DNA of 64,000 bases from assembly GCF_013266755.1 (NCBI RefSeq), contig NZ_JABRWJ010000002.1:806001-870000 (forward strand). The letters run 5' to 3'. The DNA comes from Pseudaquabacterium terrae. Its GTDB lineage: Bacteria > Pseudomonadota > Gammaproteobacteria > Burkholderiales > Burkholderiaceae_C. Shown in pieces: positions 4,602-56,910 of this stretch. Below the pieces are notes generated by a model. It had not been told where the DNA came from. It did no database searches and saw nothing but the letters and a program-made list of their open reading frames with translations. The translations under genes were made by a program, and so were the position numbers. The stretch's first letter is position 1. Each line of letters opens with the position of its first letter.

Positions 4602-5615
4602 GTGATCGCGCGACGCCGAATCGTGGCCTGGCACGGTGCTGCGCTGATGCGCCTGTGCATCGGCTCGGTACTTTCGAGCGCCCTTGTCGGCCGCGTGGCG
4701 TGGGCCCAGGCACGAAGCGCCCGCATCGGCTGGCTCGTGGGGTCCACGGCTCCGCCAAGCGGCCGATGGCCGGTGCATGTCAAGTTCCTCGACCGCCTGC
4801 ATGAACGCGGGTGGATCGAAGGAACGAACCTCGTCGTCGACATGCGCTACGCCGGCGGCCGATCCGAGCCGCTGCCGGCATTGGCTGCCGAGCTGGTCGC
4901 GCTGCGCCCCGATCTGATGGTCACCGCGGGCACGACCCCTACGCGCGCCTTGCGCGATGCGACGTCGACAATTCCGATCGTGATGGCCGGCGGCGGCGAC
5001 CCGGTGGGCAGCGGCCTGGTCCAAAGCCTCGCACGCCCCGGCGGCAACATCACCGGCGTCTCGCTGCTCGGGCAGGAGATCATCCCCAAGGCCTTGAGCC
5101 TGCTGCATGAAGTGGTGCCGCAGGCGCGGCGCATCGACCTGCTGGGCAATGCGGCCAACCCGGCGAACCAGTTCTTCGCCAAATCGTTTTCGGATGCTGC
5201 GCGTGCACGAGGCCTGGACAGCCACCTGCTCGAGATCCGCAGTGTGGACGAGATCGCGCCCGCGATCGCTGCGGCGCGCGCTGACGCGCTGTTGTGCCTG
5301 CCTGATCCGATGTTTGCGCCGAACGCCCGGCGCATCGCCGATGCGGCGATCGAGCGTCGCCTGCCGCTGGCCAACACGGGTGGGCGCCTCTACACGACGG
5401 CCGGCAGCCTGTTCTCGTACTCGGTCAACGACGATGACGTCTGGCAGCTGGCCGCGGTCTACGCCGACCGCATCCTGCGCGGCGCCAAGCCCGCCGAGAT
5501 GCCCATCGAGCAGCCCTCGCGCTACGAGCTCATCATCAACCTGAAGACCGCAAAGGCGCTCGGGCTCACCATCCCGCAAAGCGTTCTGCTGCGCGCCGAC
5601 GAGCTGATGCGTTGA
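4602..5615 (+). CDS. ABC-type substrate-binding protein (pfam04392 type)
   Basis: A 337-aa secreted protein. Residues 1-36 form a Sec signal (MIARRR basic region, hydrophobic core, RVAWAQA cleavage). The mature part shows the family features of ABC_sub_bind/TrpX-like proteins: RIGWLVG at the start, ERGWIEGTNLVVDMRYAGGR, PDLMVTAGTTPTRALRDAT, IPIVMAGGGDPVGSGLVQSLARPGGNITG, and a C-terminal INLKTAKALGLTIPQSVLLRADE. The GTG start at 4602 follows GAGGTG. No permease or ATPase gene is adjacent, as is common for this large family in Burkholderiales. The ligand is unknown; some relatives bind aromatic amino acids or act near regulatory genes. A second member lies at 21573-22559. Confidence 0.85.
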   Translation: MIARRRIVAWHGAALMRLCIGSVLSSALVGRVAWAQARSARIGWLVGSTAPPSGRWPVHVKFLDRLHERGWIEGTNLVVDMRYAGGRSEPLPALAAELVALRPDLMVTAGTTPTRALRDATSTIPIVMAGGGDPVGSGLVQSLARPGGNITGVSLLGQEIIPKALSLLHEVVPQARRIDLLGNAANPANQFFAKSFSDAARARGLDSHLLEIRSVDEIAPAIAAARADALLCLPDPMFAPNARRIADAAIERRLPLANTGGRLYTTAGSLFSYSVNDDDVWQLAAVYADRILRGAKPAEMPIEQPSRYELIINLKTAKALGLTIPQSVLLRADELMR

Positions 5616-5651
5616 CTCGCGGCACGCCCGCCGAGTACGCGCAGGAGGCGG

Positions 5652-6350
5652 TCACTCTGCAGCGCTCGCCGGGGCGCGGGAGACCGGCCGGATGTGGGCG
5701 AACATGCTGCGGGCGTTCCAGGTCGGGAAGGCTCTCACGAGCGACGAGGGGCCGTGGAGCCGGATGCGGTGCTCGCCCGTGGCCTGGGCCCAGGTGAGCT
5801 GGCCGGCGTGCCATTTGACGAAGGCCTCGGCGTCCGCCGTGATGTAGAGGTCCTCGTCGAGGCCGAGGTAGGTCTTGCAGATCTCGGTGTCGCCGAGCTC
5901 GATGAGCAGCCAATAGCGTTCAGGGCGCACGCGGCCGGTGAAGTCGAAGCGGATGACGACGCGTCGATCCGGGAGCCGGTCTCGGCGCAGCGCCCTGCAC
6001 ATCGACCACAGGGCCACGAAGGGGTCGAGGTGCTCGGGCGCGATCTCGAGCCAGCGCGCACCCCACTCGCCCAGCGACTGGCAGACCGCGAACAGTTCGT
6101 GCCCCGAGGACGTGAGCGTGTAGTGGTGCCCGCGCCCCTCGGCCTTGCGGGCCGACTCGACGATGCCGGTGAGCTCGAGCTGCTTGAGCCGCTGTGACAG
6201 CAGGGTGGCGGAGAGTCCGGGCGTGCCCTCCAGGATCTCGCTGAAGCTTGCGCAGCCGAGGTACAGGTTGCGCACGATCAGCGGTGTCCATCGCTCGGCG
6301 AAGATCTCCGAGCCGCGAGCGATGGGGCAGTATTGGCCGTACGTCCTCAC
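5652..6350 (-). CDS. HxlR-family winged-helix transcriptional regulator
   Basis: A 232-aa regulator. The N-terminus MRTYGQYCPIARGSEIFAERW is the typical HxlR opening with the conserved Cys. It is followed by the winged helix-turn-helix (residues about 20-95: FSEILEGTPGLSATLLSQRLKQLE... RGHHYTLTSSGHEL). Residues 100-220 form an extra C-terminal domain that looks like the SCP2-like fold attached to some HxlR proteins (VVIRFDFTGRVRPERYWLLIELGD...CKTYLGLDEDLYITAD). The start is a GTG at 6350. It is transcribed divergently from the FAD oxidase at 6456, with a strong inverted repeat between them (6381-6405), so the oxidase gene is its probable target together with autoregulation. Confidence 0.88.
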   Translation of the reverse strand: MRTYGQYCPIARGSEIFAERWTPLIVRNLYLGCASFSEILEGTPGLSATLLSQRLKQLELTGIVESARKAEGRGHHYTLTSSGHELFAVCQSLGEWGARWLEIAPEHLDPFVALWSMCRALRRDRLPDRRVVIRFDFTGRVRPERYWLLIELGDTEICKTYLGLDEDLYITADAEAFVKWHAGQLTWAQATGEHRIRLHGPSSLVRAFPTWNARSMFAHIRPVSRAPASAAE

Positions 6351-22698: not shown

Positions 22699-24750
22699 TC
22701 ACGGCAGCTGGTGCAAGACCAGCGGCAGCACCGCGGTGGCACCGGCCTCGCGCAGCAATGCGGCCGCCACGGTCGCGGACCAGCCGCTGCGGTAGCGGGC
22801 GTCGATCAGCAGCAGCGGCCCGGCCGGTACCTCCACCTCGGGCCGCAGCGTGAGGGCCTCGAGCAGCGCCGCCACCTTCGCGCCGGACGCGGCGTCGACA
22901 CCCGGCGTGGGGCCCACCAGGCGCAGCGGATCGACCAGCGGCAGCTTGCCCACCGATGCCACGTGCAAGGCCACCGAGCGGATCAACTGCGGGTGCAGCG
23001 CCGAGGGCATCGGCACCACGGCCACCGGCCGCGGACCCCAGCTGCGCCGCCATCGGCCGAGCACCTCGACCACCCCCTCCAGCACCTGCGGCGGCGCGGG
23101 CCCATCGGCTTTGGTGAATAGCGGCAGCAGCACCTCGGCCCAGCCGGGATCGTCGGCAAAGGCCAGCGCGCGGCCCTCATTGCAGCCGGCGATGCGGCCC
23201 TTGCGACCCACGCCGGACGGCCACAGCTTGCGCGGCTCGATGACCACGTCCTGGCCGCGTGCGAACACGCGCGCCGCCTCGATGCGCTCGGCGCTGGGCC
23301 GTGCCCCCGGACCGGGCAGCCGGCCCGTGCACACGCTGCAGCGCCCGCAGTTGCTGGGGTCGGGATCGTCCAGCGCTTCCTGCAGGAAGCGCATCAGGCA
23401 GCCCGCGCCGCCGGCGAACGAACGCATCAGGCCGGCCTCGCGCTCGCGCACCTGCGCCAGCGCCTGCCAACGCTGCGCGTCATACGTCCACGGCCGGCCG
23501 GTGAGTGCCCAGGCCGAACCGTCGCGCTGCACCACCTCGTCCACGGCCAGGATCTTCAGCAGGCCCTCGAGCCGCCCGCGCCGGATCGTGGTGGCGTTCT
23601 CCAGCTCCACCAGGGTCTGCGGCCGCTGCTCGAGCGCGCCGATGATCTTGCCCACGCGCTGTTCGTCCGGCACACCCGCCGTCGCGAAATAAGCCCAGAT
23701 CTGCTCGTCCGTCTCGGCGGGCAGCAGCACGGCCACCGCGTCGTCCAGCGCCCGGCCCGCACGGCCCACCTGCTGGTAGTAGGCCACCGGCGAGGCGGGC
23801 GAGCCGACGTGAATGCAGAACGCGAGATCGGGCTTGTCGTAGCCCATGCCCAGCGCCGAGGTCGCCACCACGGCCTTCAGCGCGTTGCGGCGCAACGCAT
23901 CCTCGATGCCCTGACGCACGGCAGTGTCCAGTCCCCCGTGGTAGGCCGCGACCTCGAAGCCGCAGGCGCTTAGGAAGCCGGCCAGCCGCTCGGTCTCGGC
24001 CACCGTGAGGGCATAGACGATGCCGGAGCCCGCAAACTGATCCAGCGCATCGGCGACCCAGGCATAACGTTCCAACGCACCGAGCCCGGGCACCACGGCC
24101 AATCGCAACGACGAACGCGCGAGCGAACCGCGGAAGGTCAAGGTCTGCGGGCCGAGCTGGCGGGCGATGTCCAGCGTCACGCGGCTGTTGGCCGTCGCGG
24201 TCGTGGCGAGCACCGGCGTGTCGGCGCCGATGCCCACCAGCGTCTTCGCCAGGCGCTGGTAGTCGGGGCGGAAGTCGAAGCCCCAGTCGGAGATGCAGTG
24301 GGCCTCGTCGATCACCACCAGCCCGGTCGCGGCGATCAGGCCGGGCAGGCGCCGCGCGAAACCCGCGTTGCCCAGCCGCTCGGGCGAGACCAGCAGCACG
24401 TCCAGGCGGTCGCTGGCGATATCGTCGAAGACCGCGTCCCAATCGTCGAGGTTGGTGGAGTTGACGGTGGCCGCGCGCAGGCCGGCCTGAGCGGCGGCGC
24501 TGACCTGGTCACGCATCAGCGCCAGCAGCGGCGAGACGATCAGCGTGGGGCCTTTGCCGGCGGCGCGCAACGCCGAAGTGGCGGCCCAGTAGACGGCGGA
24601 CTTGCCCCAGCCGGTGGCTTGCACGACGAGGACGCGGGCGCGCTGGTCGACCAGCGCGGCGACTGCGGCGGTCTGGTCTTCGCGCGGTCGCGCCGCGGGG
24701 CCGGCCATCGCGGCGAGGACCTGGCGCAGGTGGAGGTCGGCACGGGTCAT
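22699..24750 (-). CDS. RecQ-type DNA helicase fused to a phosphoribosyltransferase-like domain
   Basis: A 683-aa protein. The helicase core has Walker A ATGWGKS (Lys about 50), IVSPLLALMRDQ, DEAH at 148-151 followed by CISDWGFDFRPDY (RecQ aromatic-rich loop), TTATANSRV, and motif VI QQVGRAGRA. A zinc-binding cluster NCGRCSVCTG sits near residue 465. The last ~120 residues form a phosphoribosyltransferase-like domain with PVAVVPMPSALHP and LLLIDARYRSGWSATVAAALL, the latter corresponding to the PRPP-binding loop but with DARYRSG in place of the usual acidic DDxxTTG. I chose the ATG at 24750 (MTRADLHLRQVLA). An ATP-dependent 3'-5' DNA helicase is expected; what the fused domain does is unknown. 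A decayed second copy lies at 29606-30200. Confidence 0.9.
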   Translation of the reverse strand: MTRADLHLRQVLAAMAGPAARPREDQTAAVAALVDQRARVLVVQATGWGKSAVYWAATSALRAAGKGPTLIVSPLLALMRDQVSAAAQAGLRAATVNSTNLDDWDAVFDDIASDRLDVLLVSPERLGNAGFARRLPGLIAATGLVVIDEAHCISDWGFDFRPDYQRLAKTLVGIGADTPVLATTATANSRVTLDIARQLGPQTLTFRGSLARSSLRLAVVPGLGALERYAWVADALDQFAGSGIVYALTVAETERLAGFLSACGFEVAAYHGGLDTAVRQGIEDALRRNALKAVVATSALGMGYDKPDLAFCIHVGSPASPVAYYQQVGRAGRALDDAVAVLLPAETDEQIWAYFATAGVPDEQRVGKIIGALEQRPQTLVELENATTIRRGRLEGLLKILAVDEVVQRDGSAWALTGRPWTYDAQRWQALAQVREREAGLMRSFAGGAGCLMRFLQEALDDPDPSNCGRCSVCTGRLPGPGARPSAERIEAARVFARGQDVVIEPRKLWPSGVGRKGRIAGCNEGRALAFADDPGWAEVLLPLFTKADGPAPPQVLEGVVEVLGRWRRSWGPRPVAVVPMPSALHPQLIRSVALHVASVGKLPLVDPLRLVGPTPGVDAASGAKVAALLEALTLRPEVEVPAGPLLLIDARYRSGWSATVAAALLREAGATAVLPLVLHQLP

Positions 24751-24858
24751 GCGGGGATTGTGGGCCGCCTTCTCCCCGGTGCCGGCGGCCCAATCGAGCG
24801 CTGACGAGGCCCCAGTGGGCACGCCTGCCGCTGTGCCCTTGGCCCTCGAGCCTTCCGG

Positions 24859-26541
24859 CTAGCTCGACTGAAGCAGGCGAATCAGCACATCGATCACATC
24901 GTTGCCGTCGGGTGACTTCAGCCGGTGCTGGCGCAGCGAGCGGGCCAGGTCGGCCGGCGCCAGCAGCTTGTAGTCGGCGCGGATCAGGATGCCGGCGATG
25001 GCGCGCTGCACTTCGAGCGAGCGGGCCAGCGGGAACAGGCGGGCGATCTCCTGCAGGCTTTGCGCATCGGCCAGGCGCTGCCGTGCCAGCGTCTCGAGCG
25101 CGCGCACCTGGGCGCTGGCGGCGGTCATGCGCCCGATGCCCGACGCGACAGCACGCAGTTCACTCACGTCGGCCAGCGCTCGGTGACGCAAGTAGGTCTG
25201 CGCGACCGCGACCTCCTCGTCCTGCGAACTCGTCAGTGCACGAACGGTGCGTTCGTGCGCTTCCACGCTTCCCAGGCACGCCAGCACCGCCGCATGCATC
25301 ACATTGCCGGGTCGCACCGTACCGGTGGCCAGCACCTGCCGCGCAAGGGCCGGTTCGCGCTCGCGCTGGGTCGCGCAGACGAGATCGACCTCGTTCCTGC
25401 CCAGGCCGCCACGGGCCATGCGGTCGGCGATCATGCGCAGGAACTCCGCCTGCTCCTGCGCCGGCGACAGCCACCCGAGGCTGCGCGCCAGCGCCATCAT
25501 GCGGGTCTGCACCGCCGCTTCGTCGGCGTCGCGCGCAAACGCAAGGTAGCGCTCGCGCGTACGGCGGTCGCCTTCGATCGCCGCCAGCGCTGCTGCCACC
25601 TCGGGCACCAGCCGCTGTGCCGGGCCGACCGAGGCGGCGTAACGCTCGAGATGATCGAGGAACATGCGCACTTCGGTCACGTCGCGCTGCAGCACCTCGT
25701 GCATGAAGGCAAGCTTCTGCGCATCCGAGTGCCGCTCGTCCGCGAAGCCGCACATGTCGCGGCGGAAGCTCGCGTGCGGATCGGCATCGGTCAGTCCGGC
25801 GACGGCGATCATCGAACTCGGCCCGAACAGGTTCAGCAGCGCCGGGCTGGCGCGGCCGCTGGTGATTTCGCCCGCGGGCGCCGATTGGAAATAGCGTTCG
25901 AGCAGCGGCCCGGCGCTGCGCCCGAGCGGTGCCTTCGACGAAAAACCGTAGAGCACCGGCACGTCCTTGAAGACGTGGCGCAGCCGGTCGCGATTGCTCT
26001 GGCCGTAGCGCTCGCTCAACAGCTCGGAGAGGCGGTCGGCGTCGGCCTGCGAATGGCCCGAATGCACGAGGCTGCGCGCGACCTCGGCCGAGGCAACATG
26101 CCGCGGCGCCGACTTCAGGGTGTTGCAGCCGAACAGATACACCGCCTTGAGCTGCGAGAACAGCCCGTTGCACGACGCGCTGCAAGAAGCGCGCTGCATC
26201 TCGTGCACCGTCAGGAATTCGCGGTCGTCGAAGCGGTCGGTGTAGAACTCGGTGCCGTCGTCGAAATGGCCGGAGATGATCAGCGCGTCGCAGCTCACGC
26301 CGCTCCGGCAGGCCGAGGCCAGCCAGTCCGGCTGCCCGCGCTGCACCAGTTCGACGAAGCGGTAGTCGCCGCGCGGCAGATGGCGCTGGAACGCGTCTTT
26401 CTCGTCGGAGGAGTTGATGGTGACGGTGCACACCGTCTTCGGCGCGGCGCTGGCGCCGAACGACCCTGTCGCGGCCAGGCAGGCCAGCAGCGCGGCTGAC
26501 GCGGCGAAGAGCGATCGGGTCAGGGCAGCTCGACGCGGCAT
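24859..26541 (-). CDS. Secreted caspase/CHAT-like domain protein with helical repeats (copy A)
   Basis: A 560-aa protein I cannot assign to a named family. Residues 1-33 are a signal peptide. Residues 36-145 have a caspase-like pattern: a predicted strand ending in a small-residue-His (DALIISGH, His92) and a later strand ending in Cys (VYLFGCNT, Cys139), the order and spacing of the His/Cys dyad in CHAT and caspase-like peptidases. Five further Cys are conserved with copy B (38, 78, 84, 120, 124), suggesting disulfides outside the cytoplasm. From ~260 on the protein is alpha-helical with HEAT-like repeats (e.g. LEVQRAIAGILIRADYK). It is a tandem paralogue of 26588-28270. Activity is inferred, not shown. 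Confidence 0.7.
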   Translation of the reverse strand: MPRRAALTRSLFAASAALLACLAATGSFGASAAPKTVCTVTINSSDEKDAFQRHLPRGDYRFVELVQRGQPDWLASACRSGVSCDALIISGHFDDGTEFYTDRFDDREFLTVHEMQRASCSASCNGLFSQLKAVYLFGCNTLKSAPRHVASAEVARSLVHSGHSQADADRLSELLSERYGQSNRDRLRHVFKDVPVLYGFSSKAPLGRSAGPLLERYFQSAPAGEITSGRASPALLNLFGPSSMIAVAGLTDADPHASFRRDMCGFADERHSDAQKLAFMHEVLQRDVTEVRMFLDHLERYAASVGPAQRLVPEVAAALAAIEGDRRTRERYLAFARDADEAAVQTRMMALARSLGWLSPAQEQAEFLRMIADRMARGGLGRNEVDLVCATQREREPALARQVLATGTVRPGNVMHAAVLACLGSVEAHERTVRALTSSQDEEVAVAQTYLRHRALADVSELRAVASGIGRMTAASAQVRALETLARQRLADAQSLQEIARLFPLARSLEVQRAIAGILIRADYKLLAPADLARSLRQHRLKSPDGNDVIDVLIRLLQSS

Positions 26542-26587
26542 CCGGGCAGTGTTTCACAAGCGGCGCCGGCGAGGTGGGGGCATACCC

Positions 26588-28270
26588 TCAGGGCGATCGC
26601 AGCCTGCGCACCAGCGCGTCGATCATGTTGTCGCCGGCGGGGGACGGCCGGCGGTCCGTGATCAAGGTGCGCACGAGTTGCGGGCTGGCGATCGAGCGCG
26701 CGTCGGCGCGTATCAGGATGCCCGCGATGGCGGCCTGCACGGTCCATGACGACGTCTGCGAGTACAGGCGTATCAGCAGGTCCAGAATGTCGCGATCGGA
26801 CACGTAGTGCCGGCCCAGGGCCTCCAGCGCGCGCACCTGTGCATCGGAGGCACGCATGCGGGCGATGCCGGCGGCGACCCGGCGCAACTCGGTGGCGTCG
26901 GTGATGGGCCGGTGCCGCAGATAGGCCCGCGCGATCTGGACCTCCGCCTCGTTCGGGCTGACCAGTCCCTCCAGCGTGCGTGCACGGCCCTCGGCACTGC
27001 CCAGGCAGGCGCGAACGGCGGCGTGCGGCACGTCGTCGGCCGGCCCCCCCGGCGTCGCGCTCGGTTGGAACGTGCCGTCGAGCTCGTGCTCCTGGTTCAA
27101 GGTGCAGGCCAGATCGACCTCCGTCACGCCGACCGCGCTGCGGGCCTGCAGATCGACCAGCATCAGCGCGAGTTCACCCCAGCGCTGCTCGGCCGACAGC
27201 CATCCGAAGTCGCGTGCGACCTTGAGCATGCGCGCCCGCACCGCCGGCTGGTCGGCGTCGCGCGCGAAGTCGAGAAAGCGCGCGCGCAGGGCGGCGTCGC
27301 CGGCGATGTCCGCCAGCGCCTGGGCCACCTCCGGCGTCCGCCGCGCCGGGTTGTCGAGCGCCTTCGCATAGCGCTGGATGCGGTCGAGATGCATCCTGGC
27401 TTCGGCCATCTGCCGCTGCAGCAGCTGGCGAACGAAGCCGAGCTTCTTGGCGTCCGACAGGCGGTCGTCGGCGAACTGGCAGACGTCGCGTCGCGTGGCG
27501 GCGTGCGGATCCTTGTCGGTCATGCCCTGGGTCACGGTCATCGCGTACGGCGCGAAGTGCCCGAGCAGGCGGCCGCTCGGGCGGCCCTGTCCGATCTCGC
27601 TCGCGCCGCTGGTCCGGAAGTAGCCGCTCAGCGTGGAGGCGGCGATCGGGCCCAAGGGTGCCACCGACGAGAAGCCGTAGATCACCGGCACGTCCTTGAA
27701 GACCTGGCGCATGCGGTCACGGCTGCTCTCGCCGTGCCCGGCGTTCAACCAGCGCAAGTGGCGCTCGGCCTCCTTCAGCGAGTGGCCTTCGCGCACCAGG
27801 CTGCGAACGATCTCTGCCGATGCGCTGCTCTGCGCCTCGGTGTTCAGCGTGTTGCAGCCGAACAGATGCACCTCCTTCAGCCGGGCGAAGAGCCCCGGGC
27901 AGGAATCGCTGCAGGAGACGCGCTCCAGTTCGTCGACCGGCAGAAATTCGCGCGTCTCCAGGCGGTCCGAAAAGAACTCGTTGCTGCCGTCGTAGTGGCC
28001 GGAGATGATCAGCACGTCGCAGGCGATGGCGGCGCGGCAAGCCGAGGCCAGCCAATCGGGCCGGTCGCGCTCGACGAGTTCGACGAACTGGTATTTCGCT
28101 GCCGGCAGGTAGCGCCGAAAGGCTTCCTTCTCGTCGGCGGAATTGACGGTGACGGTGCAAACCGTCTGCTTCACGGCCGCGGCCGGGGCCGCGGCGAACG
28201 GCGCCGACAAGGGCAGGGCCACCGCGAACGCGACGAGCCAGAGCTTCGGTGGCCAGCGCATGCGGGCCAT
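26588..28270 (-). CDS. Secreted caspase/CHAT-like domain protein with helical repeats (copy B)
   Basis: Paralogue of copy A. From the ATG at 28270 it is also exactly 560 aa and aligns without gaps through the first 170 residues: His92 in LIISGHYDG, Cys139 in VHLFGCNT, and Cys 38, 78, 84, 120 and 124 all coincide. That alignment is why I prefer 28270 over the ATG at 28297. The signal peptide ends near residue 33. The conserved frame CTVTxNSxDEKxAF, FVELV, PDWLASACR and REFL is shared. The C-terminal half has HEAT-like helical repeats (WTVQAAIAGILIRADAR). The 46-bp gap to copy A and same strand suggest one transcript. Maintenance of both dyads argues for function in both copies. Role unknown. 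Confidence 0.7.
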   Translation of the reverse strand: MARMRWPPKLWLVAFAVALPLSAPFAAAPAAAVKQTVCTVTVNSADEKEAFRRYLPAAKYQFVELVERDRPDWLASACRAAIACDVLIISGHYDGSNEFFSDRLETREFLPVDELERVSCSDSCPGLFARLKEVHLFGCNTLNTEAQSSASAEIVRSLVREGHSLKEAERHLRWLNAGHGESSRDRMRQVFKDVPVIYGFSSVAPLGPIAASTLSGYFRTSGASEIGQGRPSGRLLGHFAPYAMTVTQGMTDKDPHAATRRDVCQFADDRLSDAKKLGFVRQLLQRQMAEARMHLDRIQRYAKALDNPARRTPEVAQALADIAGDAALRARFLDFARDADQPAVRARMLKVARDFGWLSAEQRWGELALMLVDLQARSAVGVTEVDLACTLNQEHELDGTFQPSATPGGPADDVPHAAVRACLGSAEGRARTLEGLVSPNEAEVQIARAYLRHRPITDATELRRVAAGIARMRASDAQVRALEALGRHYVSDRDILDLLIRLYSQTSSWTVQAAIAGILIRADARSIASPQLVRTLITDRRPSPAGDNMIDALVRRLRSP

Positions 28271-29605: not shown

Positions 29606-30200
29606 TGCCCTGCCGCACGCCCGTCTCCAGGCCGCCGTGGTAAGCCGCCACCTCGAAGCCGCAGGAAGCCCGCCAGCCGCTCGGTCTCGGCCACCGTGAG
29701 GGCATAGACGATGCCGGAGCCCGCAAACTCAGCCAGCGCATCGCCGACCCAGGCATAACGCTCCAATGCACTGAGTCCGGGGATCACGGCCAATCGCAAC
29801 GACGAACGCGCGAGCGAACCGCGGAAGGTCAAGGTCTGCGGGCCGAGCTGGCGGGCGATGTCCAGGGTCACGCGGCTGTTGGCCGTCGCGGGCGTGGCGA
29901 GCACCGGCGTGTCGGCGCCGATGCCCACCAGCGTCTTCGCCAGGCGGCGCTGACCTGGTCACGCATCAGCGCCAGCAGCGGGGAGACGATCAGGGTGGGG
30001 CCTTTGCCGGCGGCGCGCAGGGCCGAAGTGGCGGCCCAATAGACGGCGGACTTCCCCCAGCCGGTGGCTTAGACGACGAGGACGCGGGCGTGCTGGTCGA
30101 CGAGCGCTGCGACCGCTGCGGTCTGGTCCTCGCGGGGTTGCGCCGCGGGGCCGGCCATGGCGGCGAGGACTTGGCGCAGGTGGAGGTCGGCGGGGGGCAT
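29606..30200 (-). pseudogene. Decayed second copy of the RecQ-type helicase gene
   Basis: This stretch is highly similar at DNA level to the 5' part of the intact helicase gene at 22699-24750, starting from the same ATG context (30200). Three lesions are visible. Codon 44 is a stop (VV-stop-ATG where the intact gene has VVQATG). About 250 bp are missing, joining sequence equivalent to 24495 with 24253 and removing the DEAH motif. An 8-bp deletion shifts the frame near 29663 (CGCAGGAAGC against CGCAGGCGCTTAGGAAGC). Similarity ends near 29606, so the 3' two thirds are absent. It cannot make a helicase. Confidence 0.88.
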
Positions 30201-30558
30201 GCGGGATTGTGGGCCGCGTTCGCGTCCCCTCGACGCATGATGTCGCCTGCGGAGCGCTGCGATAGAAGTGGCCACACTGCAGGATGGATGCCATGACCTT
30301 TCGAGCAACCGGAACGGGCCAGATTGAAATCGCCCCCCGTTGTTCGGGCGCCGGCATGTTGAAGGCGCTCTTGCTCAACCTCGACTTCGACGACGCACAC
30401 GTCACGGCCCTTGAAGCGCGAACACATCGACTTCATGCGTACACGAGACATGCCGCTGCTCGCGAGCGTTCGGAGCAACGTCACGCTCTGCCGACCAGGA
30501 CACGGCAGCTCATCGCTACCTAGAATCGCCAGGTCGCAGCACTGTTCAAGGGGCCAGC
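30201..30558. other. Intergenic stretch, no gene recognised
   Basis: This 358-bp stretch separates the recQ remnant from the glycosidase gene. The first ~30 bp still resemble the region upstream of the intact helicase gene (GGATTGTGGGCCGC). A possible 79-codon ORF (30284-30523, plus) has no recognisable relatives, no good ribosome site and no consistent codon bias. I see no promoter elements I would defend. Confidence 0.4.
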
Positions 30559-31920
30559 GTGAACGTTCTGAGCAATGTCGTTGCGCGCGTGATGTTTGTC
30601 CTTTTGATCACGTTTTCTGTGCCGGTGCCTGCCCAGGTCGTTGGTTGGACCTTCAAGGGAGCCAGCTCCGGCGTGCCAAGCTGGGACTTGACTGAGACGA
30701 CGCCACGCGACGAGGACCTCAAAGAGGCAATTGAGAGAATGAAGCGGAATGGCGTCAACTGGTATGAAATTGGTGTTGCATGGTTCATGCCTTCGCTGAC
30801 GTCGATCGTCGTGGAGCCGATCTACGATCGCGAGAGGATCCATCCTGCCGCCAGCGGTTCGCTACTACCCACTGTCTCTGACCAGCGGCTCGAGCAGGTG
30901 ATTGCCAAGTTCCGCACCAACGGCATCAAGGTCTATCTGCGGCCGAGTGTCGAGCCGAACATGGCAGCGTGGCGCGGCGACATTGCCCCGACGGACTGGA
31001 ACCAATGGTTCAATAGCTACACTGGTTTCATCACCCACTACGCCCGACTCGCGCAGCGTAGCGGCGCAGAAATGCTCTCTGTCGGCCTTGAACTCAACTC
31101 GTCCGTCGGTCGCACCGAGAACTGGCGCGCACTGATCGCTGCCGTGCGCAGCGTCTATTCAGGAGCGATCTCGTATGACTGCGGCGGAGTTCTGTACCAT
31201 GGTCGCGATGAGGACTACACCACAATGGACCTCGTTCGCAATTGGCAGGCTGCATCGGTGGGTGATTTCCTTTCTGCGGTCGACTACATCGGCATCGACT
31301 GGTATCCGCCCATCGCCAGCCGATCGGACAGCAGCGTCGCCGAGATGACCGAGAATGCGCGCGCGATCGCCGACCAATTCCTCCGGCCGCTGGTGCAGCG
31401 CTTTGGCAAGCCGATCTACTTCGGCGAGATTGACTACGCGAGCGTTGACCGATCCGCAATGAATCCATTGCTGTACCGGTCTGGCAACATCGACGAAGGC
31501 GAGCAGGCAAGCGCATTCGAGGCGATCTTCCGGGTCTTCTCCAACCAGCCGTGGTTTGCCGGCATGTTTCCGGCAAGCCACTTTTTGACCGTCTTCAAGG
31601 ACCAGGCCGGGACGACAAACTCAATCTGGTTTAAGCCAGCGGAGGGAGTCTTCCAACGATGGTATGGAGGGGCCTTGGCAAAAGCTGGCTGCCTCTTCGA
31701 CTGGGCAGAGCGCACATATCCGACGCTGTTTCCAAATAGTCATATCGGAAATGGGCTGGACTACTATGCGCCGTACTACTACCGGTACTATCCTGGAAGC
31801 GCAAACTATGTCGGCGTGTCTAGCGACAACCAGCGGGTTTGGTTGCTTGGTTCCATCACGGGCGGGCAGCTAACCGAGGTCGGCACCTTCGAGGCGTTCG
31901 CAGCCACGGCAGGTTGTTAG
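30559..31920 (+). CDS. Secreted GH113-like glycoside hydrolase with C-terminal accessory domain
   Basis: A 453-aa protein. The signal peptide ends near VPVPAQ. Residues 28-360 form a TIM-barrel of GH113-like type: NGVNWYEIGVAWF, GIKVYLRPSVEP, SVGLELNSS with the probable acid/base Glu, DYIGIDWYPP, and YFGEIDYAS with the probable nucleophile Glu. GH113 enzymes include endo-beta-mannanases, but the substrate here is not established. The last ~70 residues (CLFDWAERTYPTLFP ... YYRYYPGSANYVGV ... VGTFEAF) match a domain also found near the N-terminus of the protein at 46350-48461. The GTG start at 30559 has AAGGGG upstream. Codon use is less GC-rich than in the flanking core genes, suggesting transfer. 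Confidence 0.78.
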   Translation: MNVLSNVVARVMFVLLITFSVPVPAQVVGWTFKGASSGVPSWDLTETTPRDEDLKEAIERMKRNGVNWYEIGVAWFMPSLTSIVVEPIYDRERIHPAASGSLLPTVSDQRLEQVIAKFRTNGIKVYLRPSVEPNMAAWRGDIAPTDWNQWFNSYTGFITHYARLAQRSGAEMLSVGLELNSSVGRTENWRALIAAVRSVYSGAISYDCGGVLYHGRDEDYTTMDLVRNWQAASVGDFLSAVDYIGIDWYPPIASRSDSSVAEMTENARAIADQFLRPLVQRFGKPIYFGEIDYASVDRSAMNPLLYRSGNIDEGEQASAFEAIFRVFSNQPWFAGMFPASHFLTVFKDQAGTTNSIWFKPAEGVFQRWYGGALAKAGCLFDWAERTYPTLFPNSHIGNGLDYYAPYYYRYYPGSANYVGVSSDNQRVWLLGSITGGQLTEVGTFEAFAATAGC

Positions 31921-32217: not shown

Positions 32218-32982
32218 ATGACGCGCTTCGCCGAATGGTGCACGGAGGTCGTCGTTGGGTGCAGTGCGCCCCATAGCCACACGATGCTGCACGCAGATGC
32301 ATCGAAGTTTGATGCGTCGGTTGCCATCGTGGCAGATGTGGTGCCCGAACACTTCTTGCCGCCGAGCCGGCTGGCGGAGATGTTCGCTCGCCTGCAGCGG
32401 CACGAAGTTGCTGAGTTGATTCAGAACAGGCTGCCGGAAAGCGCGCAGCTCAAGTCTGGCGATCTCGGCGAGGTGTTGTGCACCACTTTCATCGGTGAAA
32501 AGACGCCGTTCACGCTGGGCATCAAACGTCTTCAATTCAAGGACCACCGAAACATGTCGATGCGAGGCGACGACATGTTGGGCTTTAACTTGAACCCCGT
32601 GACCGGCAAGCTCACTGTGCTCAAGGCGGAGTCCAAGAGCAATGCAACCATGCCTGCTTCCACCGTCGCTAAGGCTCGAGAGGCGCTGTCCGGCTATGGC
32701 GAGCTGCCGTCGCCCCATTCAATGGGATTCGTTGCTGATCGGCTGACGAATCCTGCTGACAAGCCCTTGCGGGACGCAATCGACGACGCTCAGTTGAAGA
32801 AGTCACTGAAGCCCGGCGATGTCACGCACATGCTTTTCGCCTTCACGGGCAACGACACGACCACGCTGTTGCAATCCAACTTGAGCGGCTACCCGGGGGG
32901 CGCGGCCCAGCACTATGTCGGACTGCGGGTCGCTGAACATCAGAAGTTCATCAAAGCCGTCTTCGCGGCCGTGGGGGCCTGA
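32218..32982 (+). CDS. hamA: Hachiman defence protein HamA (DUF1837 nuclease)
   Basis: A 254-aa DUF1837 protein. Family features: LKSGDLGEVLCTTFIGE, IKRLQFKDHRNMSMRGDDMLGF and LTVLKAESKSN. The Asp of RGDD (about 118-119) together with Glu138-x-Lys140 in the AESK motif make a PD-(D/E)xK-like nuclease site. In the Hachiman system HamA is the nuclease effector held by the helicase HamB and released or activated on sensing abnormal DNA during phage infection. The stop overlaps the hamB start (TGATG), so the two are translationally coupled and presumably made in fixed ratio. The start at 32218 has only a weak GAAAG site. The pair sits in a lower-GC accessory region. Function is inferred from the family; no experiment on this pair is implied. 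Confidence 0.85.
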   Translation: MTRFAEWCTEVVVGCSAPHSHTMLHADASKFDASVAIVADVVPEHFLPPSRLAEMFARLQRHEVAELIQNRLPESAQLKSGDLGEVLCTTFIGEKTPFTLGIKRLQFKDHRNMSMRGDDMLGFNLNPVTGKLTVLKAESKSNATMPASTVAKAREALSGYGELPSPHSMGFVADRLTNPADKPLRDAIDDAQLKKSLKPGDVTHMLFAFTGNDTTTLLQSNLSGYPGGAAQHYVGLRVAEHQKFIKAVFAAVGA

Positions 32983-35900
32983 TGGCATCCACATCCGAGG
33001 AACTGCGCTCCAACATCCGTGAAGCGGTTGAGGCGGGTTACCGTCAACAGTTGCTCGCGAGGGGACAAGCGCGCGGCATGATTTGGCGCGCGGGCGAACT
33101 GCCTATAGATGCGCCGAATTTCAGTCCGCTCCTTTCGGAGGACCTACTCTCGTTCGGCTACTCGCTGCTGCTCCATGGTCTGCGGTATCTGGATTTGGGC
33201 GGCGACTTCGAGACTGCGCGACAAGCCTTCGAGGTTGCGGCGGAGTCCATCGAGGCCGTCGTCGCGCGAGGGCAACTGGACGAGACGCGAGATTTTCACC
33301 GTCTAGTCGCAGCAAGCGCGTACCACTTAGGGCGGTTCTCGGCGCGCGCGTACTCACTCCTGAGGGCTGACTTCGAGCAGGCCAACCTGTCTGTTGTTGA
33401 GCGATGCCTCGCACAACTGGTGCTGAGGGACCTTGCTGGGGTGAACCGTGCGGTTGCTAGCTGGTTCGAGTCGGGCGCCGGTTCCGACGACAACCTGATG
33501 GCTGCGCTGGATCCCCTTTTCGAAGTAGGCGGTCAGGGGGCGGCCCTGGAAGACGGCGAAGGTGTGGCTGAGGCCCTGTTGCTTGGCTTAGAGGGCAACT
33601 TCATGTCGGCGATGTCTCAGACGCTGCTCGCTCTGGAGCGGGGCGAACAGCATCTCATCGGCGAAGCACAGGCGCGTCTCAGGCAGGGCCTGTCCGTGGC
33701 GGGGGACATGAACTTCGTCGGCCAGTGGTGGGTGCATCGCTTGGCGCTGTACATCGTCGACAGCCTGTGGTCCAGCAGCTTTCACGCGATCCTGCCCATG
33801 TCCGGCCCCGATGGTGCAGCAATCGGCGATTGGGAATCGTTGCGCAAACTGTTCATCACCTCGCTGTTGTGCCGCGGTCGGTCGGAGATTGAGCTCTGGC
33901 CGTCTCAGATTGAAGCAGCGAAGCGTGTGCTGGAGTACGACGCCAATCTTGTGCTGTCACTGCCCACAAGCGCGGGAAAGACGCGCATCGCAGAGCTGTG
34001 CATCCTCGCGTGCCTGGCGCTAGGCACGCGAGTCGTTTTCGTAACGCCCTTGCGTGCGCTGTCTGCGCAAACAGAGGTCTCGCTGCGCCGCACGTTTAGC
34101 GCGCTCGGCAAAAGCGTCTCAAGCCTTTATGGCAGCATCGGGGCCAGCAGTAGCGATGTCGACACCCTCAAGTCACGCGACATCGTGGTGTCGACGCCCG
34201 AGAAGCTCGATTTCGCCCTTCGGAGCGACCCGACGCTCTTGGACGACGTGGGGTTGGTGGTCCTCGACGAAGGCCACATGATAGGGCTCGGCGAGCGGGA
34301 GGTGCGCTACGAAGCACAAGTCCAGCGGCTGCTTCGGAGGCCTGACGCAGCTTCCCGGCGCATCGTCTGCCTTTCCGCCATCCTGCCTGATGGTGACCAA
34401 CTCGCTGACTTCACCGCTTGGCTCACCGCCGACCGGCCCGACGGACTCATCAAGAACGGTTGGCGCCCGACCCGGCTTCGATTCGGTGAGGTTGACTGGA
34501 ACCCAGAGACCAAGGTCGCGCAGCTGAACGTGGTGGTGGGGGACGAGCATCCGTTCATTCCCAAGTTTGTCGTCGGGAAGAGGACGTCCAATCGTGCAAA
34601 CGCGGCGATCGTCCCCGGATCGCAGACCGACCTGTGCATCTTCACGGCGTGGCGTCTGATTGAAGATGGTCAGTCGGTGCTGGTGTTCTGTCCGATTCGA
34701 GTGTCGGTCATGCCGTTCGCCAAACGCATCATCAAGCTAAGCCAAGGGGGCTTGCTCCCGCCGATCATGACGCCTCCGGTCGACGCTATCGCGTCCGCAT
34801 TGGCCGTCGGTGCTGAGTGGTTCGGCCCGGATCACGATATCTTGAAATGCCTCCGCATGGGCGTGGCGGTCCACCATGGCGAGTTACCCACCCAGTTCCG
34901 CAAGGAAGTGGAGCACTTGCTTAGGGACGGCATTTTGAAACTCACGGTGTCGTCACCGACCCTCGCCCAGGGGCTGAACTTGGCGGCAACCAGCCTCATC
35001 CTTCACGGGCATTCCAGGCATGGTGAGGCGATCGATGAGTCCGAGTTCCGAAATGTCGTCGGTCGGGCTGGCCGCGCGTATGTCGACATCGAAGGGTTGG
35101 TGCTCTACCCGATGTTCGACGAGCACGAGAAGCGGCGAGATGCCTGGAAGGGTCTGATCCGCGGCGACAAACAACGTGAGATGGAGAGCGGCATCTTCCG
35201 ATTGCTTTACTGGCTACTGGATCGCATGGCCAGGAAGATCGGGACGAGGGACGTCGATGCCTTGCTGGCGTATGTGGCAGGTCAGGGCGCTTGGAGCTTT
35301 GCGGCGGTGCCTGGGGAGCGAAAAAGGTTGGCAGAGGCCGCGGTTGAAGACTGGCCGCGACATCTAACCAGCCTGGACACAGCCATCTTCAGCTTGCTTG
35401 GGGACGCGCAGGTTGCTGATGAAGAGCTCGAGTCAAAGATTGATGAGGTGCTGACGTCATCGCTGCTCACGCGCCGGCTCGCGCGGCGGAGTGAAGGTGT
35501 TCAAAGGGCGCTGCTTTCTGGCTTGAAGGCCAGAGCGAAGCTGATCTGGACCGGTTCCACAGCGGTGCAACGGCGCGGCTATTTCCTCGCCGGCGTCGGG
35601 CTTGAGACGGGCAGAATGCTGGATGAGAAGGCCGATGAGCTTGAGTTCTTGTTGCTCAGGGCGGATACGGCTGTAGACGGCGGTGAAGTCGATGAAGCTG
35701 TCAAGGCGATCGTCGCTTTCGCCGAGATTGCCTTCGAAATCTCCCCGTTCACGCCGAAGTCGTTGCCGCCAGATTGGCGAAAGTTTCTGGACCAGTGGCT
35801 GAGAGGAGCTCCAGTTCACGAGTTGGGGGACGACGACGCAGACGATGCGATATCCCTCATCGAGCATGCGTTCGTCTACAACTTGCCGTGGGCGATGGAA

Positions 35901-36500
35901 GCCGTGAGGGTTCGTGCGCAGGCTCACGCTCCCGTTGGGGATCCATTCGACCTAGACATCGACCTTCTGCCGAATCTGGGGAGCGGCAGCGCTGTTGCTG
36001 CAGTCGAGACGGGAACGTTGTCCATCCCGGCTGCGGTGTTGATCAAGGCCGGCTTCGCGTCGAGGCTCGGCGCCATCAGCGCGGTGCTCTCGACAGGCGC
36101 AGATTTCGACGACGCCAAGGGCCTGCGTGCTTGGCTTGCCTCAGATACCGTACTGGCTTGGAGCGTCATTCCCACATGGCCGACAGAAAACTCGCACGAA
36201 CTTTGGAGGGAGTTCACTGCGCCTCATGGAGCAGGCAACGTACAACCGTGGACGACGACGGAGTACACCGGACCGGTTCAATGGAAGGGTGGCGTACCGA
36301 TGCCGCCCGGGATGCCCCTGCGCATTGCCGGCTCCGGACCGAAGGTCGGCGTGATCTACAGCAGCGACTACCGAGAGTTGGGGAGAGTTCGTTATCCCTT
36401 CAGTCAGAAGGCCGTCGGCCTCACAGTGGCAACGTCAAACGGTGGGGCAGACCAGATCTCGTTCGAGTACACCGGACCGAATGACCTGATTCAGTCCTGA
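32982..36500 (+). CDS. hamB: Hachiman defence helicase HamB
   Basis: A 1172-aa superfamily 2 helicase. Residues 1-310 are a helical N-terminal region. The Ski2/Lhr-like core has Walker A SLPTSAGKTR (about 326-335), FVTPLRALSAQ, the DExH box as VVLDEGHMIG (about 427), CLSAILPDGDQ as motif III, and motif VI FRNVVGRAGRA (about 690). The last ~450 residues are a family-specific region without known motifs. HamB homologues translocate on DNA and gate the HamA nuclease. Length and gene order hamA-hamB match the two-gene Hachiman layout. No further defence gene follows; the next gene on the plus strand is at 45308. 36501-36689 shows nothing recognisable. Confidence 0.87.
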   Translation: MASTSEELRSNIREAVEAGYRQQLLARGQARGMIWRAGELPIDAPNFSPLLSEDLLSFGYSLLLHGLRYLDLGGDFETARQAFEVAAESIEAVVARGQLDETRDFHRLVAASAYHLGRFSARAYSLLRADFEQANLSVVERCLAQLVLRDLAGVNRAVASWFESGAGSDDNLMAALDPLFEVGGQGAALEDGEGVAEALLLGLEGNFMSAMSQTLLALERGEQHLIGEAQARLRQGLSVAGDMNFVGQWWVHRLALYIVDSLWSSSFHAILPMSGPDGAAIGDWESLRKLFITSLLCRGRSEIELWPSQIEAAKRVLEYDANLVLSLPTSAGKTRIAELCILACLALGTRVVFVTPLRALSAQTEVSLRRTFSALGKSVSSLYGSIGASSSDVDTLKSRDIVVSTPEKLDFALRSDPTLLDDVGLVVLDEGHMIGLGEREVRYEAQVQRLLRRPDAASRRIVCLSAILPDGDQLADFTAWLTADRPDGLIKNGWRPTRLRFGEVDWNPETKVAQLNVVVGDEHPFIPKFVVGKRTSNRANAAIVPGSQTDLCIFTAWRLIEDGQSVLVFCPIRVSVMPFAKRIIKLSQGGLLPPIMTPPVDAIASALAVGAEWFGPDHDILKCLRMGVAVHHGELPTQFRKEVEHLLRDGILKLTVSSPTLAQGLNLAATSLILHGHSRHGEAIDESEFRNVVGRAGRAYVDIEGLVLYPMFDEHEKRRDAWKGLIRGDKQREMESGIFRLLYWLLDRMARKIGTRDVDALLAYVAGQGAWSFAAVPGERKRLAEAAVEDWPRHLTSLDTAIFSLLGDAQVADEELESKIDEVLTSSLLTRRLARRSEGVQRALLSGLKARAKLIWTGSTAVQRRGYFLAGVGLETGRMLDEKADELEFLLLRADTAVDGGEVDEAVKAIVAFAEIAFEISPFTPKSLPPDWRKFLDQWLRGAPVHELGDDDADDAISLIEHAFVYNLPWAMEAVRVRAQAHAPVGDPFDLDIDLLPNLGSGSAVAAVETGTLSIPAAVLIKAGFASRLGAISAVLSTGADFDDAKGLRAWLASDTVLAWSVIPTWPTENSHELWREFTAPHGAGNVQPWTTTEYTGPVQWKGGVPMPPGMPLRIAGSGPKVGVIYSSDYRELGRVRYPFSQKAVGLTVATSNGGADQISFEYTGPNDLIQS

Positions 36501-51759: not shown

Positions 51760-52521
51760 TCACCAGGTTTCGATCCAGGGGCGCAGGTCCAGCTCGTGTG
51801 TCCAGGCGCTGCGGGGCTGGCAGTGCAGCTGCCAGTAGTTCTCGGCGATCGCTTCCGGGTCGAGGATGCCCTCGCGTTCCTTCAGCGCATATCGGCCGGG
51901 GAAATTCTCGGCGATGAACTGCGTGTCGATCGCGCCGTCGATGACGATGTGCGCGACGTGCAGGCCCTCGGGTCCGAGCTCCCGCGCCATGCTCTGCGCC
52001 AGCGCGCGCAGCGCATGCTTGGCGCCGGCGAAGGCGCAGAAGCCCGACGAGCCGCGCAGGCTGGCGGTCGCGCCGGTGAAGAGGATGGTGCCGCGGCCGC
52101 GCGGGCGCATCACGCGCGCCGCTTCGCGCCCGGCCAGGAAGCCGGCCAGCGCGGCCATCTCCCAGACCTTGCGGTAGACGCGCTCGGTGGTCTCGGTGAT
52201 GCCGAAGCGCACGTTGGCGCCGATGTTGAAGACCACCACCTCGATCGGCGCGACCTCGGCCTCGATCTGCGCGAACAGCGCGGCCACCTGCTCCTCCTTG
52301 CGCGCGTCGGAGGCGAACCCGTGCGCCTGGCCGCCATCGGCGCGGATGCGCTCGACCAGCGGCTGCAGCTTGTCGGCCGTGCGGCGCACGACGCAGGCGA
52401 TGTAGCCCTCGCGGGCAAAGCGGCGCGCGATCGCGCCGCCGGTGGCGTCGCCGGCGCCGATGACCAGCGCGGCCTTGGTGGCCTGGGGAGGGGGGGATGC
52501 GGTCACGGGCGGGTTCTCCAT
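51760..52521 (-). CDS. Short-chain dehydrogenase/reductase
   Basis: A 253-aa SDR. The nucleotide-binding motif is VIGAGDATGGAIARR, with Asp-Ala-Thr where GxxxGxG glycines usually occur, as in many divergent SDRs. The YxxxK motif is replaced by FAGAKHALRALAQ (Phe for Tyr), so classical dehydrogenase activity is doubtful. The conserved NNAG is VFNIGANV. Start may be the ATG at 52521 or the GTG at 52506, which has GGAGAA seven bases upstream. First gene of a pair with the isomerase-like protein. It may act on an aromatic or acyl substrate; not known. Confidence 0.8.
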   Translation of the reverse strand: MENPPVTASPPPQATKAALVIGAGDATGGAIARRFAREGYIACVVRRTADKLQPLVERIRADGGQAHGFASDARKEEQVAALFAQIEAEVAPIEVVVFNIGANVRFGITETTERVYRKVWEMAALAGFLAGREAARVMRPRGRGTILFTGATASLRGSSGFCAFAGAKHALRALAQSMARELGPEGLHVAHIVIDGAIDTQFIAENFPGRYALKEREGILDPEAIAENYWQLHCQPRSAWTHELDLRPWIETW

Positions 52522-52631
52522 TCACCTGCACGACTCTAGGACGAAACCTACGCGCGCATGCGCAGGCGTCCGATGCGCGCCGGCCAGCGGCAGTTCGCAT
52601 ACTGCCCTGCATCTGTCGTTGGAGAACCATC

Positions 52632-53435
52632 ATGCATGTCCGCACAACCGCGCTGGCGCTGATCGCCATCACCTGGGGTGCGCAAGCCGCCGCCCAGGTC
52701 ACCTTCTATGCGCGCGAGAACTTCGAAGGTCCCGCGTTCACCACGCAGCAGTACGTGCCGCACCTCGAGCGCCGGTTCGACGACCGGGCGTCGTCGGCGG
52801 TGGTCACCAGCAACCGCTGGGAGGTCTGCGAAGAACCCGAGTTCCGCGGCCGCTGCGTCGTGCTGCGACGCGGCAGCTACCCGTCGCTGGCGGCGATGGG
52901 CATCGACAACCAGATCTCGTCGGTGCGGGCATTGCGCCAGAACGTCCGTGTCGATGACAGCCGCTATGCGCCGAGCCCGCTGATCTCCGGCGACTTCCGC
53001 CGGCGCCACAACGAACGCCTGTTCGAGGCCGAGGTCACCGCCGTGCGCGCGGTGATGGGGCCGCCGGAACGGCGCTGCTGGGTCGAGCGCCAGCAGGTCG
53101 TCGAAGACCACGGCCGCAGCAACGTGCCGGGTGCCATCGCCGGTGCCGTTCTCGGCGGCATCCTCGGCCACCAGGTCGGCGGCGGCAGTGGTCGGGACAT
53201 CGCCACCGGCGTCGGTGCGGTGGCCGGCGCGGCGGCCGGCTCGCGCATCAACAGCCGGGACGAACGGGTGGGCTACCGTGACGTGCAGCGCTGCTCCGAG
53301 GTGCCGGCCGGCGCGCGGCCGAGCCACTACGACGTGACCTACCGCTTCCGCGGCCAGGAGCACACGATGCAGACGACCACGCCGCCGGGGGCGACGGTGA
53401 CCGTCAACCGCCTGGGCGAACCGCGCGCGGCCTGA
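52632..53435 (+). CDS. Secreted beta/gamma-crystallin-like protein with glycine zipper (copy 1)
   Basis: A 267-aa exported protein. Signal peptide 1-21 (ends AQAAAQ). Residues 22-110 resemble a beta/gamma-crystallin fold (VTFYARENFEGPAFTTQQYV, SSAVVTSNRWEVCEEPEFRGRCVVLRRGSYPSL). A second beta segment follows (LFEAEVTAVRAVMGP). Residues ~155-195 are a glycine-zipper segment (GAVLGGILGHQVGGGSG...GAVAGAAAGS) of the Rick_17kDa/2TM type that inserts into membranes. GGAGAA lies before the ATG. A paralogue of identical length is at 56107. Calcium binding is possible but not shown. Confidence 0.85.
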   Translation: MHVRTTALALIAITWGAQAAAQVTFYARENFEGPAFTTQQYVPHLERRFDDRASSAVVTSNRWEVCEEPEFRGRCVVLRRGSYPSLAAMGIDNQISSVRALRQNVRVDDSRYAPSPLISGDFRRRHNERLFEAEVTAVRAVMGPPERRCWVERQQVVEDHGRSNVPGAIAGAVLGGILGHQVGGGSGRDIATGVGAVAGAAAGSRINSRDERVGYRDVQRCSEVPAGARPSHYDVTYRFRGQEHTMQTTTPPGATVTVNRLGEPRAA

Positions 53436-55963: not shown

Positions 55964-56106
55964 GACGACCCTAGGACAACGACTACCGTGGCTCGCGTGG
56001 ACGTCCGATGGCCGCGCCCGACGATGCTTCGCACACTCGGCCAGTCCCACGAACACCGCGGTTGCCGATCGGCTTCGGTGCATTTCACAGCCCACCGGAG
56101 AAACTC

Positions 56107-56910
56107 ATGAAGATCCGCACAATCGCACTGGCGCTGGTCGCCCTCACGGCCACCGCGCACGCCACGGCCCAGGTCACTTTCTACGAGAACGAGGGCTACG
56201 AAGGCCGCTCGTTCACGACGCAGGAGCAGGTGCGCAACTTCCAGCGCCGCTTCAATGACCGCGCGTCCTCCGCGGTGGTCACCAGCAACCGCTGGGAGGT
56301 CTGTGCCGACGCCGACTTCGGCGGCCGCTGCGTGGTGCTGCGCCGGGGCAACTACCCGTCGTTGGCCGCGATGGGCCTGGACGACCGCGTGTCCTCGGTG
56401 CGCGCCGTCGGCAGGCAGGCCCGCGTCGACGACGAGCGCTACGCGCCCTCGCCGCTCATCGATCGCGACTACCGCCGGCGCGGCGGCGAACGGCTGTACC
56501 AGGCCGACGTGACCTCGGTGCGCGCCGTGATGGGCCCGCCGGAGACCCGCTGCTGGGCCGACCGTGAGCAGGTCCCCGACCACGGCCGCAGCAATGTGCC
56601 GGGTGCGGTCGTCGGCGCGGTCCTCGGCGGCATCCTCGGTCACCAGGTCGGCGGCGGTAGCGGCAAGCAGATCGCCACGGTCGGCGGCGCGGTCGCCGGC
56701 GGCGCCATCGGCGCCCGCACCGGCCGCGACGACAACGGCCGGCCCGGCTCGTTCCGCGACTTCCAGCGCTGCAGCGAGACGGCGGCGCGCCAGCGGCCGG
56801 ACCATTGGGACGTGACCTACCACTTCCGGGGCCAGGAGCACCGCGTGCAGATGACCGCGCCGCCCGGACAGACGGTGACCGTCAACCGTGACGGCGAGCC
56901 GAGGGCCTGA
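56107..56910 (+). CDS. Secreted beta/gamma-crystallin-like protein with glycine zipper (copy 2)
   Basis: A 267-aa paralogue of the protein at 52632, the same length and with the same order: signal peptide (ends AHATAQ), crystallin-like part (VTFYENEGYEGRSFTTQEQV, SSAVVTSNRWEVCADADFGGRCVVLRRGNYPSL), glycine zipper (GAVLGGILGHQVGGGSGKQIATVGGAVAGGAIGAR) and C-terminal beta segment (HWDVTYHFRGQEHRVQM). GGAGAA precedes the ATG. A 47-aa membrane protein starts three bases after its stop. Divergent from the orphan kinase. The two copies bracket the lipoprotein cluster and were probably produced by local duplication. Confidence 0.85.
   Translation: MKIRTIALALVALTATAHATAQVTFYENEGYEGRSFTTQEQVRNFQRRFNDRASSAVVTSNRWEVCADADFGGRCVVLRRGNYPSLAAMGLDDRVSSVRAVGRQARVDDERYAPSPLIDRDYRRRGGERLYQADVTSVRAVMGPPETRCWADREQVPDHGRSNVPGAVVGAVLGGILGHQVGGGSGKQIATVGGAVAGGAIGARTGRDDNGRPGSFRDFQRCSETAARQRPDHWDVTYHFRGQEHRVQMTAPPGQTVTVNRDGEPRA

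Follow-up and report, generated by a model that had tools for sequence, protein, structure and literature searches.

A conserved tandem pair of probable exported caspase-like peptidases with HEAT-type arms in Pseudaquabacterium terrae

A 64,000-nucleotide stretch of the Pseudaquabacterium terrae genome (contig NZ_JABRWJ010000002.1, positions 806,001 to 870,000, here called the window) carries two adjacent genes on its minus strand, A (protein P0001) and B (P0002), that probably encode exported cysteine peptidases of the caspase or clan CD type, each composed of a signal peptide, a domain holding a His92–Cys139 dyad, and a HEAT-type helical solenoid. This reading draws on the computed fold of A, the position and conservation of the dyad, the export-type N termini, the helical arm, purifying selection and the two-gene arrangement. 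The first-pass annotation of the window had described two neighboring 560-residue proteins with signal peptides, and both open reading frames (ORFs) were recovered, each with a signal-peptide-like start. The features are as follows; AF2 denotes AlphaFold2.

24859–26541, minus strand: gene A (P0001), 560 aa from ATG, second of the pair; its orthologues form the 40-row tree clade
26588–28270, minus strand: gene B (P0002), 560 aa from ATG, first of the pair; its orthologues form the 38-row tree clade
26443–26541, minus strand: signal-peptide-like N terminus of A, residues 1–33 (sequence and a crude hydropathy test)
28172–28270, minus strand: signal-peptide-like N terminus of B, residues 1–33 (sequence and a crude hydropathy test)
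25774–26442, minus strand: caspase/CHAT-like domain of A, residues 34–256 (AF2 and structure search)
27503–28171, minus strand: caspase/CHAT-like domain of B, residues 34–256 (gapless 57% identity to the domain of A, the AF2 model being of A only)
26266–26268, minus strand: codon of His92 in A, presumed catalytic His, right after strand 86–90 (sequence, conservation, AF2)
26125–26127, minus strand: codon of Cys139 in A, presumed nucleophile, right after strand 133–137 (sequence, conservation, AF2)
27995–27997, minus strand: codon of His92 in B (sequence and alignment to A)
27854–27856, minus strand: codon of Cys139 in B (sequence and alignment to A)
24862–25773, minus strand: helical HEAT/ARM-like solenoid of A, residues 257–560 (AF2, profile and structure searches)
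26591–27502, minus strand: helical HEAT/ARM-like solenoid of B, residues 257–560 (alignment to A; sub-threshold HEAT_2 match at 476–534)

Gene B ends 46 bp before gene A starts. The gapless alignment of the two proteins, first noticed over 170 residues, in fact runs across all 560 columns at 50% identity, rising to 57% in the domain. His92 (in the motif SGH) and Cys139 (FGC) coincide in A and B, as do the five further cysteines that had been pointed out (C38, C78, C84, C120 and C124) and, beyond these, C264, C389 and C422. The two genes are the sole family matches in the host genome (8.04 Mb, 56 contigs).

The AF2 model of protein A has a predicted local distance difference test score (pLDDT) of 89.4 and a predicted template modeling score (pTM) of 0.83, and its domain modeled alone gives 88.4 and 0.84. 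In a VIA structure search with this domain, 48 of 50 entries among the matches listed are, by title, SAVED-CHAT proteins, legumain/AEP, GPI-transamidase, C11 peptidases or caspases/apopain; the remaining two are 1nmq, which we take to be caspase-3, and 9qpe, an Hcp3–Tce1 complex. Foldseek returns three matches at E ≤ 0.001, all of them SAVED-CHAT, and the best structural match among those listed is SAVED-CHAT 8tl0. A search of a viral structure library gave no match at E ≤ 0.001. Within the model, His92 follows strand 86–90 and Cys139 follows strand 133–137, that is, strands 3 and 4, the places at which clan CD enzymes carry their catalytic His and Cys according to PMC4357240. The model, VIA and Foldseek thus agree on a caspase/CHAT-type α/β fold of clan CD for A, as the first-pass annotation had anticipated.

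The dyad is conserved to a degree that bears out the earlier prediction for His92 and Cys139. Both residues are kept in all 109 rows that cover both, on a base of 114 ORFs (118 rows) from which repeats of the same loci were left out, with one extra row for only the His, one for only the Cys, and two genes of genome G394 counted twice (as loci L070 and L076). Because one of the two genome-scan patterns contained Cys139, this count is biased; rows from a profile search with no Cys139 requirement keep the dyad in 34 of 34 cases (33 from Bdellovibrionota plus L072, from a genome of the window's own order), six of which overlap the first set (five repeats of pattern-scan loci and L072). We also compared 18 divergent ORFs, namely 17 of the 22 weakest matches in a Bdellovibrionota sample, the five weakest being left out, and L073, which is also among the 109. 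Fifteen keep both residues, three have lost both (L155, L159 and L166), and none has lost just one, as a catalytic pair predicts. The three dyad-less homologues (L155, 834–3416; L159, 919–1653; L166, 242–3274) are likely non-catalytic versions of the same fold. When profiles were aligned with no hint of the dyad, His fell on His and Cys on Cys for both CHAT (probability 16%) and DUF4347 (13%); a wider profile gave 13% and 33%, respectively, against a yardstick of 26% for DUF4347 versus CHAT.

The position directly before the His, Gly91, is Gly in 106 and Ala in 4 of 110 covered rows, and Gly in 34/34 profile-search rows. The residue that follows the His is Phe in 40/40 rows of A, and Tyr (29), His (6) or Phe (2) in the 37 covered rows of B, which suggests that substrate or role may not be the same for A and B. 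The S1 pocket of known clan CD enzymes is formed by helix 1 or its preceding loop, together with the loops after strands 4 and 5; a basic P1 residue is the commonest preference, and gingipain and MALT1 place an S1 Asp on helix 1 (PMC4357240). Glu47, which opens helix 1, is conserved in 109/109 covering rows, in 34/34 profile-search rows and in 11/11 divergent rows that bear the dyad and cover this site; of the divergent dyad-bearing rows covering the sites, Asn43 is kept in 10/11 and Glu64 in 10/10, and all three residues are replaced in the dyad-less L159. Since an invariant Glu47 on helix 1 is placed like the S1 Asp of gingipain and MALT1, our best guess is a preference for Arg or Lys at P1, with cleavage after these residues by way of an acidic S1 pocket made by Glu47 and possibly Glu64.

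A hydrophobic, export-type N terminus is present in 95 of 96 evaluable betaproteobacterial ORFs and in 33 of 34 other rows (the exception being L072), as called by a crude hydropathy test on the N terminus and not by a trained predictor; in P0001, AF2 places a helix at residues 5–25, within the signal-peptide-like stretch. The first-pass suggestion that the shared cysteines form disulfides outside the cytoplasm holds best for C78 and C124, which are both present in 96 rows, both absent in 13, and never split where both are covered; among the divergent ORFs both are absent in seven. A disulfide between C78 and C124 is well supported by this joint loss. The other pairs are less sure: C84–C120, both replaced in L073, and C389–C422, lost together in L064, are weakly suggested as disulfides, and C38–C264 would pair by elimination only. 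Under this arrangement the protein would be held by disulfides and act either in the periplasm or extracellularly, with Cys139 left free as the nucleophile.

The C-terminal half consists of helical repeats in the AF2 model of A, as had been surmised, and its HEAT character is sub-threshold by sequence in the window proteins and clear in a homologue. HEAT_2 (PF13646) scores 17 bits in P0002 against a cut-off of 27.7 and gives no match in P0001; in homologue L064 it scores 182 bits over about nine 33-aa units, and five other homologues scanned gave no Pfam match at E ≤ 0.01. The A3 profile matches the synthetic protein E4-NB2 at E 2.8e-4, and its matches to alphaRep/HEAT chains begin at E 0.0086. 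In L064 the HEAT array comes from a DNA stretch (5154–6049) made of about nine 99-bp units that match at 80%, a sign of repeat duplication in that arm. We propose that the arm would bind a substrate or a regulator.

The pair recurs well beyond the window. Among 53 betaproteobacterial loci examined, same-strand groups of at least two members occur at 44; L056 carries its members on opposite strands, and the other eight have a single member, six of these at a contig edge. In a tree of 91 rows, first genes form a 38-row clade (support 81) and second genes a 40-row clade (support 93), with 8 rows unsorted and the Bdellovibrionota members outside; L040 carries two first-type genes, and in L050 and L053 the first gene is split over two frames. 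These clades argue for one old duplication, after which the genes were inherited jointly, B preceding A, and a recent duplication of the pair finds no support in the same tree, though the forks are only moderate (93, 81) and the 8 rows stay unsorted. The ratio of nonsynonymous to synonymous substitution rates (dN/dS), computed with our own NG86 script for four orthologue comparisons, is 0.24–0.37 for the whole gene, 0.16–0.23 for the domain and 0.25–0.45 for the arm, so both parts are under purifying selection and the domain is more conserved than the arm. Low dN/dS together with same-strand members at 44/53 loci places the pair beyond chance, in keeping with the earlier suggestion that selection has kept both copies. 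A and B, together since that one duplication, may cooperate, whether by forming a heteromer or by one protein activating its partner. In the Bdellovibrionota sample, L153 (G1010:C43, 513–8390) holds three divergent members in a row; multi-copy arrays therefore also occur outside Burkholderiales.

The family matches none that is named in the collections searched, as the first-pass annotation had supposed. P0001 and P0002 have no Pfam or NCBIfam match above the curated cut-off and no PADLOC match at E ≤ 0.1. When 91 family domains were scanned singly against Pfam (E ≤ 1), no family appeared in more than three domains and none had an E under 0.025; CHAT (PF12770) is absent from the matches of these domains and of both window proteins, and neither the Pfam models of Peptidase C14 (caspase/metacaspase p20), C11, C13 and C25 nor DUF4347 (PF14252) is among the matches listed for them, DUF4347 also being without a match in this genome at E ≤ 0.001. 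The domain is thus of the clan CD fold by structure, yet lies outside CHAT, C14, C11, C13, C25 and DUF4347 by model. A literature search, largely without subscription papers, found no title or abstract opening that describes the family or its combination of export, cysteines, HEAT repeats and pairing.

We ran two degenerate patterns over 84,980 species genomes, a scan that misses relatives lacking them, and found 56 loci, by record title mostly from Burkholderiales or betaproteobacteria (Rubrivivax, Piscinibacter, Ramlibacter, Ideonella and metagenome-assembled genomes), with L053 labeled Alphaproteobacteria; it also found five Bdellovibrionota loci (L062, L064–L067), whose members share 32–36% domain identity with the window protein. 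The family is rare close to the window, matching 4/150 genomes of its family, 6/300 of its order and 2/398 of its phylum, with the window's own genome counted each time. In a sample of Bdellovibrionota, the phylum of G812 (the genome of L065, labeled Bdellovibrionales), 61 of 240 genomes have a match, 41 of them one and 20 two to four. With matches in about a quarter of the sampled genomes, the family may matter for this phylum. Bdellovibrionota include predatory bacteria.

Several known systems resemble A and B in part. Relative to the CHAT domain (PF12770), A and B have no Pfam match and add an export-type N terminus, conserved cysteines, the order GH instead of HG, and the HEAT arm; the 11 CHAT matches elsewhere in this genome all fall in other genes. 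The clostripain family C11 (iotapain 6nag, clostripain 9cip) differs in that A and B have no C11 Pfam match, and C11 enzymes are not known to have a HEAT arm. In DUF4347 the His and Cys ('SHG ... YGCN') align to His92 and Cys139 with a probability of only 13–33%, and there is no Pfam match. Separase, also of clan CD, joins a helical-repeat region to a caspase-like domain as A and B do, but is eukaryotic and much larger, with the repeats first and the protease last (PMC4852461). Cyanobacterial orthocaspases and metacaspases with EZ-HEAT or HEAT_2 likewise join a bacterial caspase-like domain to HEAT repeats (PMC2853523, PMC7475262); those proteins carry p20, whereas A and B have no p20 Pfam match and have an export signal, conserved cysteines and a gene pair. 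Secreted caspase-like peptidases are on record as well, among them clostripain, gingipains and toxin-processing domains (PMC3482391). The first-pass view that a secreted caspase-like protein with repeats is in itself unusual was therefore too broad, as caspase–HEAT fusions and secreted clan CD peptidases are already known; the novelty lies in the family, the combination and the pair. These findings add a conserved family unnamed in Pfam and NCBIfam to the clan CD fold and would locate a caspase-like domain and its HEAT recognition arm outside the cytoplasm of bacteria, the bacterial caspase–HEAT fusions that we found in print being cyanobacterial p20 proteins. The recurring pair also offers a clean test of whether bacterial caspase-like enzymes work as partners.

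A more specific proposal, which we regard as possible but rather doubtful, is that A and B form an unnamed exported two-component caspase-like protease, whose paralogues work only jointly (as a heteromer or as activator and effector) and whose separase-like HEAT arm chooses substrates outside the cytoplasm, with a usually unpaired form in a quarter of the sampled Bdellovibrionota genomes and a freshly duplicated repeat array in at least L064. Separase itself is not known to be exported.

Other accounts of the pair have to be weighed against that of exported peptidases. Caspase-like domains in exported bacterial proteins are often autoprocessing peptidases (PMC3482391), and that of A and B might mainly cut its own chain and free the HEAT arm as the working part; length beyond the domain does vary, the open frames of homologues with E ≤ 1e-50 running from 349 to 1061 aa. 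We consider this unlikely, as in that paper a processing domain is usually followed directly by a C-terminal toxin domain, whereas here the part that follows is a helical solenoid with no toxin family match, and as the catalytic domain is better conserved than the arm. A non-enzymatic scaffold or receptor, using the fold for binding and the dyad for structure, would explain how the fold survives without catalysis in 3 of the 18 divergent homologues; it is made quite unlikely by a His and Cys that are invariant in the counted rows, stand beside likely pocket residues and are lost jointly. The location of the pair between a PsyrT/RecQ-like helicase gene (22699–24822) and a Hachiman locus (32218–36500) would suit a part in anti-phage defence or in a toxin system acting between bacteria, as would its closest structure among the matches listed, a SAVED-CHAT protein, which we take to be a defence protein. 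Such a role is very unlikely given the export-type N termini, the lack of PADLOC matches for P0001 and P0002 noted above, the absence of a tblastn match of P0001 on plasmids or phages, and 57 flanking genes of mixed listed Pfam families among which the sole PADLOC match at E ≤ 1e-20 is the window's own helicase. That the domain is some other Rossmann-like α/β fold merely resembling a caspase seems highly improbable, although three-layer folds of this kind (short-chain dehydrogenases, response regulators) do appear lower in the Foldseek list.

Against the reading of A and B as exported peptidases stand several further observations. The three dyad-less divergent homologues mean that the fold can serve without catalysis, and the sequence-profile links to CHAT and DUF4347 are weak. 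Known clan CD enzymes have a structurally conserved glycine next to the His (PMC4357240); here the glycine comes before the His (SGHF), which is followed by Phe, Tyr or His. Four divergent ORFs (two in L153, one each in L154 and L159) keep one of C84 and C120, a one-sided loss that makes this pairing doubtful or replaceable, and in L162 C124 remains while C78 is missing, within a poorly aligned stretch. Support for the A and B clades is moderate, and neighboring genes differ between loci and give no hint of function.

Conserved neighbors were sought by clustering flanking ORFs over 52 loci, the flanking genes being called with a crude in-house caller; no family occurs in more than 10 loci, and positions are mixed. 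Pfam families of the flanking genes are likewise mixed, none occurring in more than 3 of 57 genes among the 25 of 66 families listed. An association with defence genes likewise finds no support, on the PADLOC count of 1/57 and despite the Hachiman locus nearby.

Within the window, the RecQ-like helicase gene (22699–24822, minus strand; PADLOC PsyrT, E 4.1e-192) has a truncated second copy at 29606–30221 (minus strand), which matches in two pieces at about 92% identity; between the two copies sit the caspase-like pair and a gene for an S11 D-Ala-D-Ala peptidase. Upstream of the Hachiman locus is a GH113-family glycoside hydrolase (30559–31920, plus strand; Pfam E 2.2e-42). The locus itself, on the plus strand, comprises HamA (PADLOC E 5.6e-86, Pfam HamA) and the HamB helicase (PADLOC 1561 bits) in a stretch with a GC content of about 0.61, below most of the window. 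Farther along, positions 52621–53410 and 56097–56888 form a 77% direct repeat within related ORFs (52497–53435 and 56008–56910) that have a glycine-rich segment and what we take to be a crystallin-like look.

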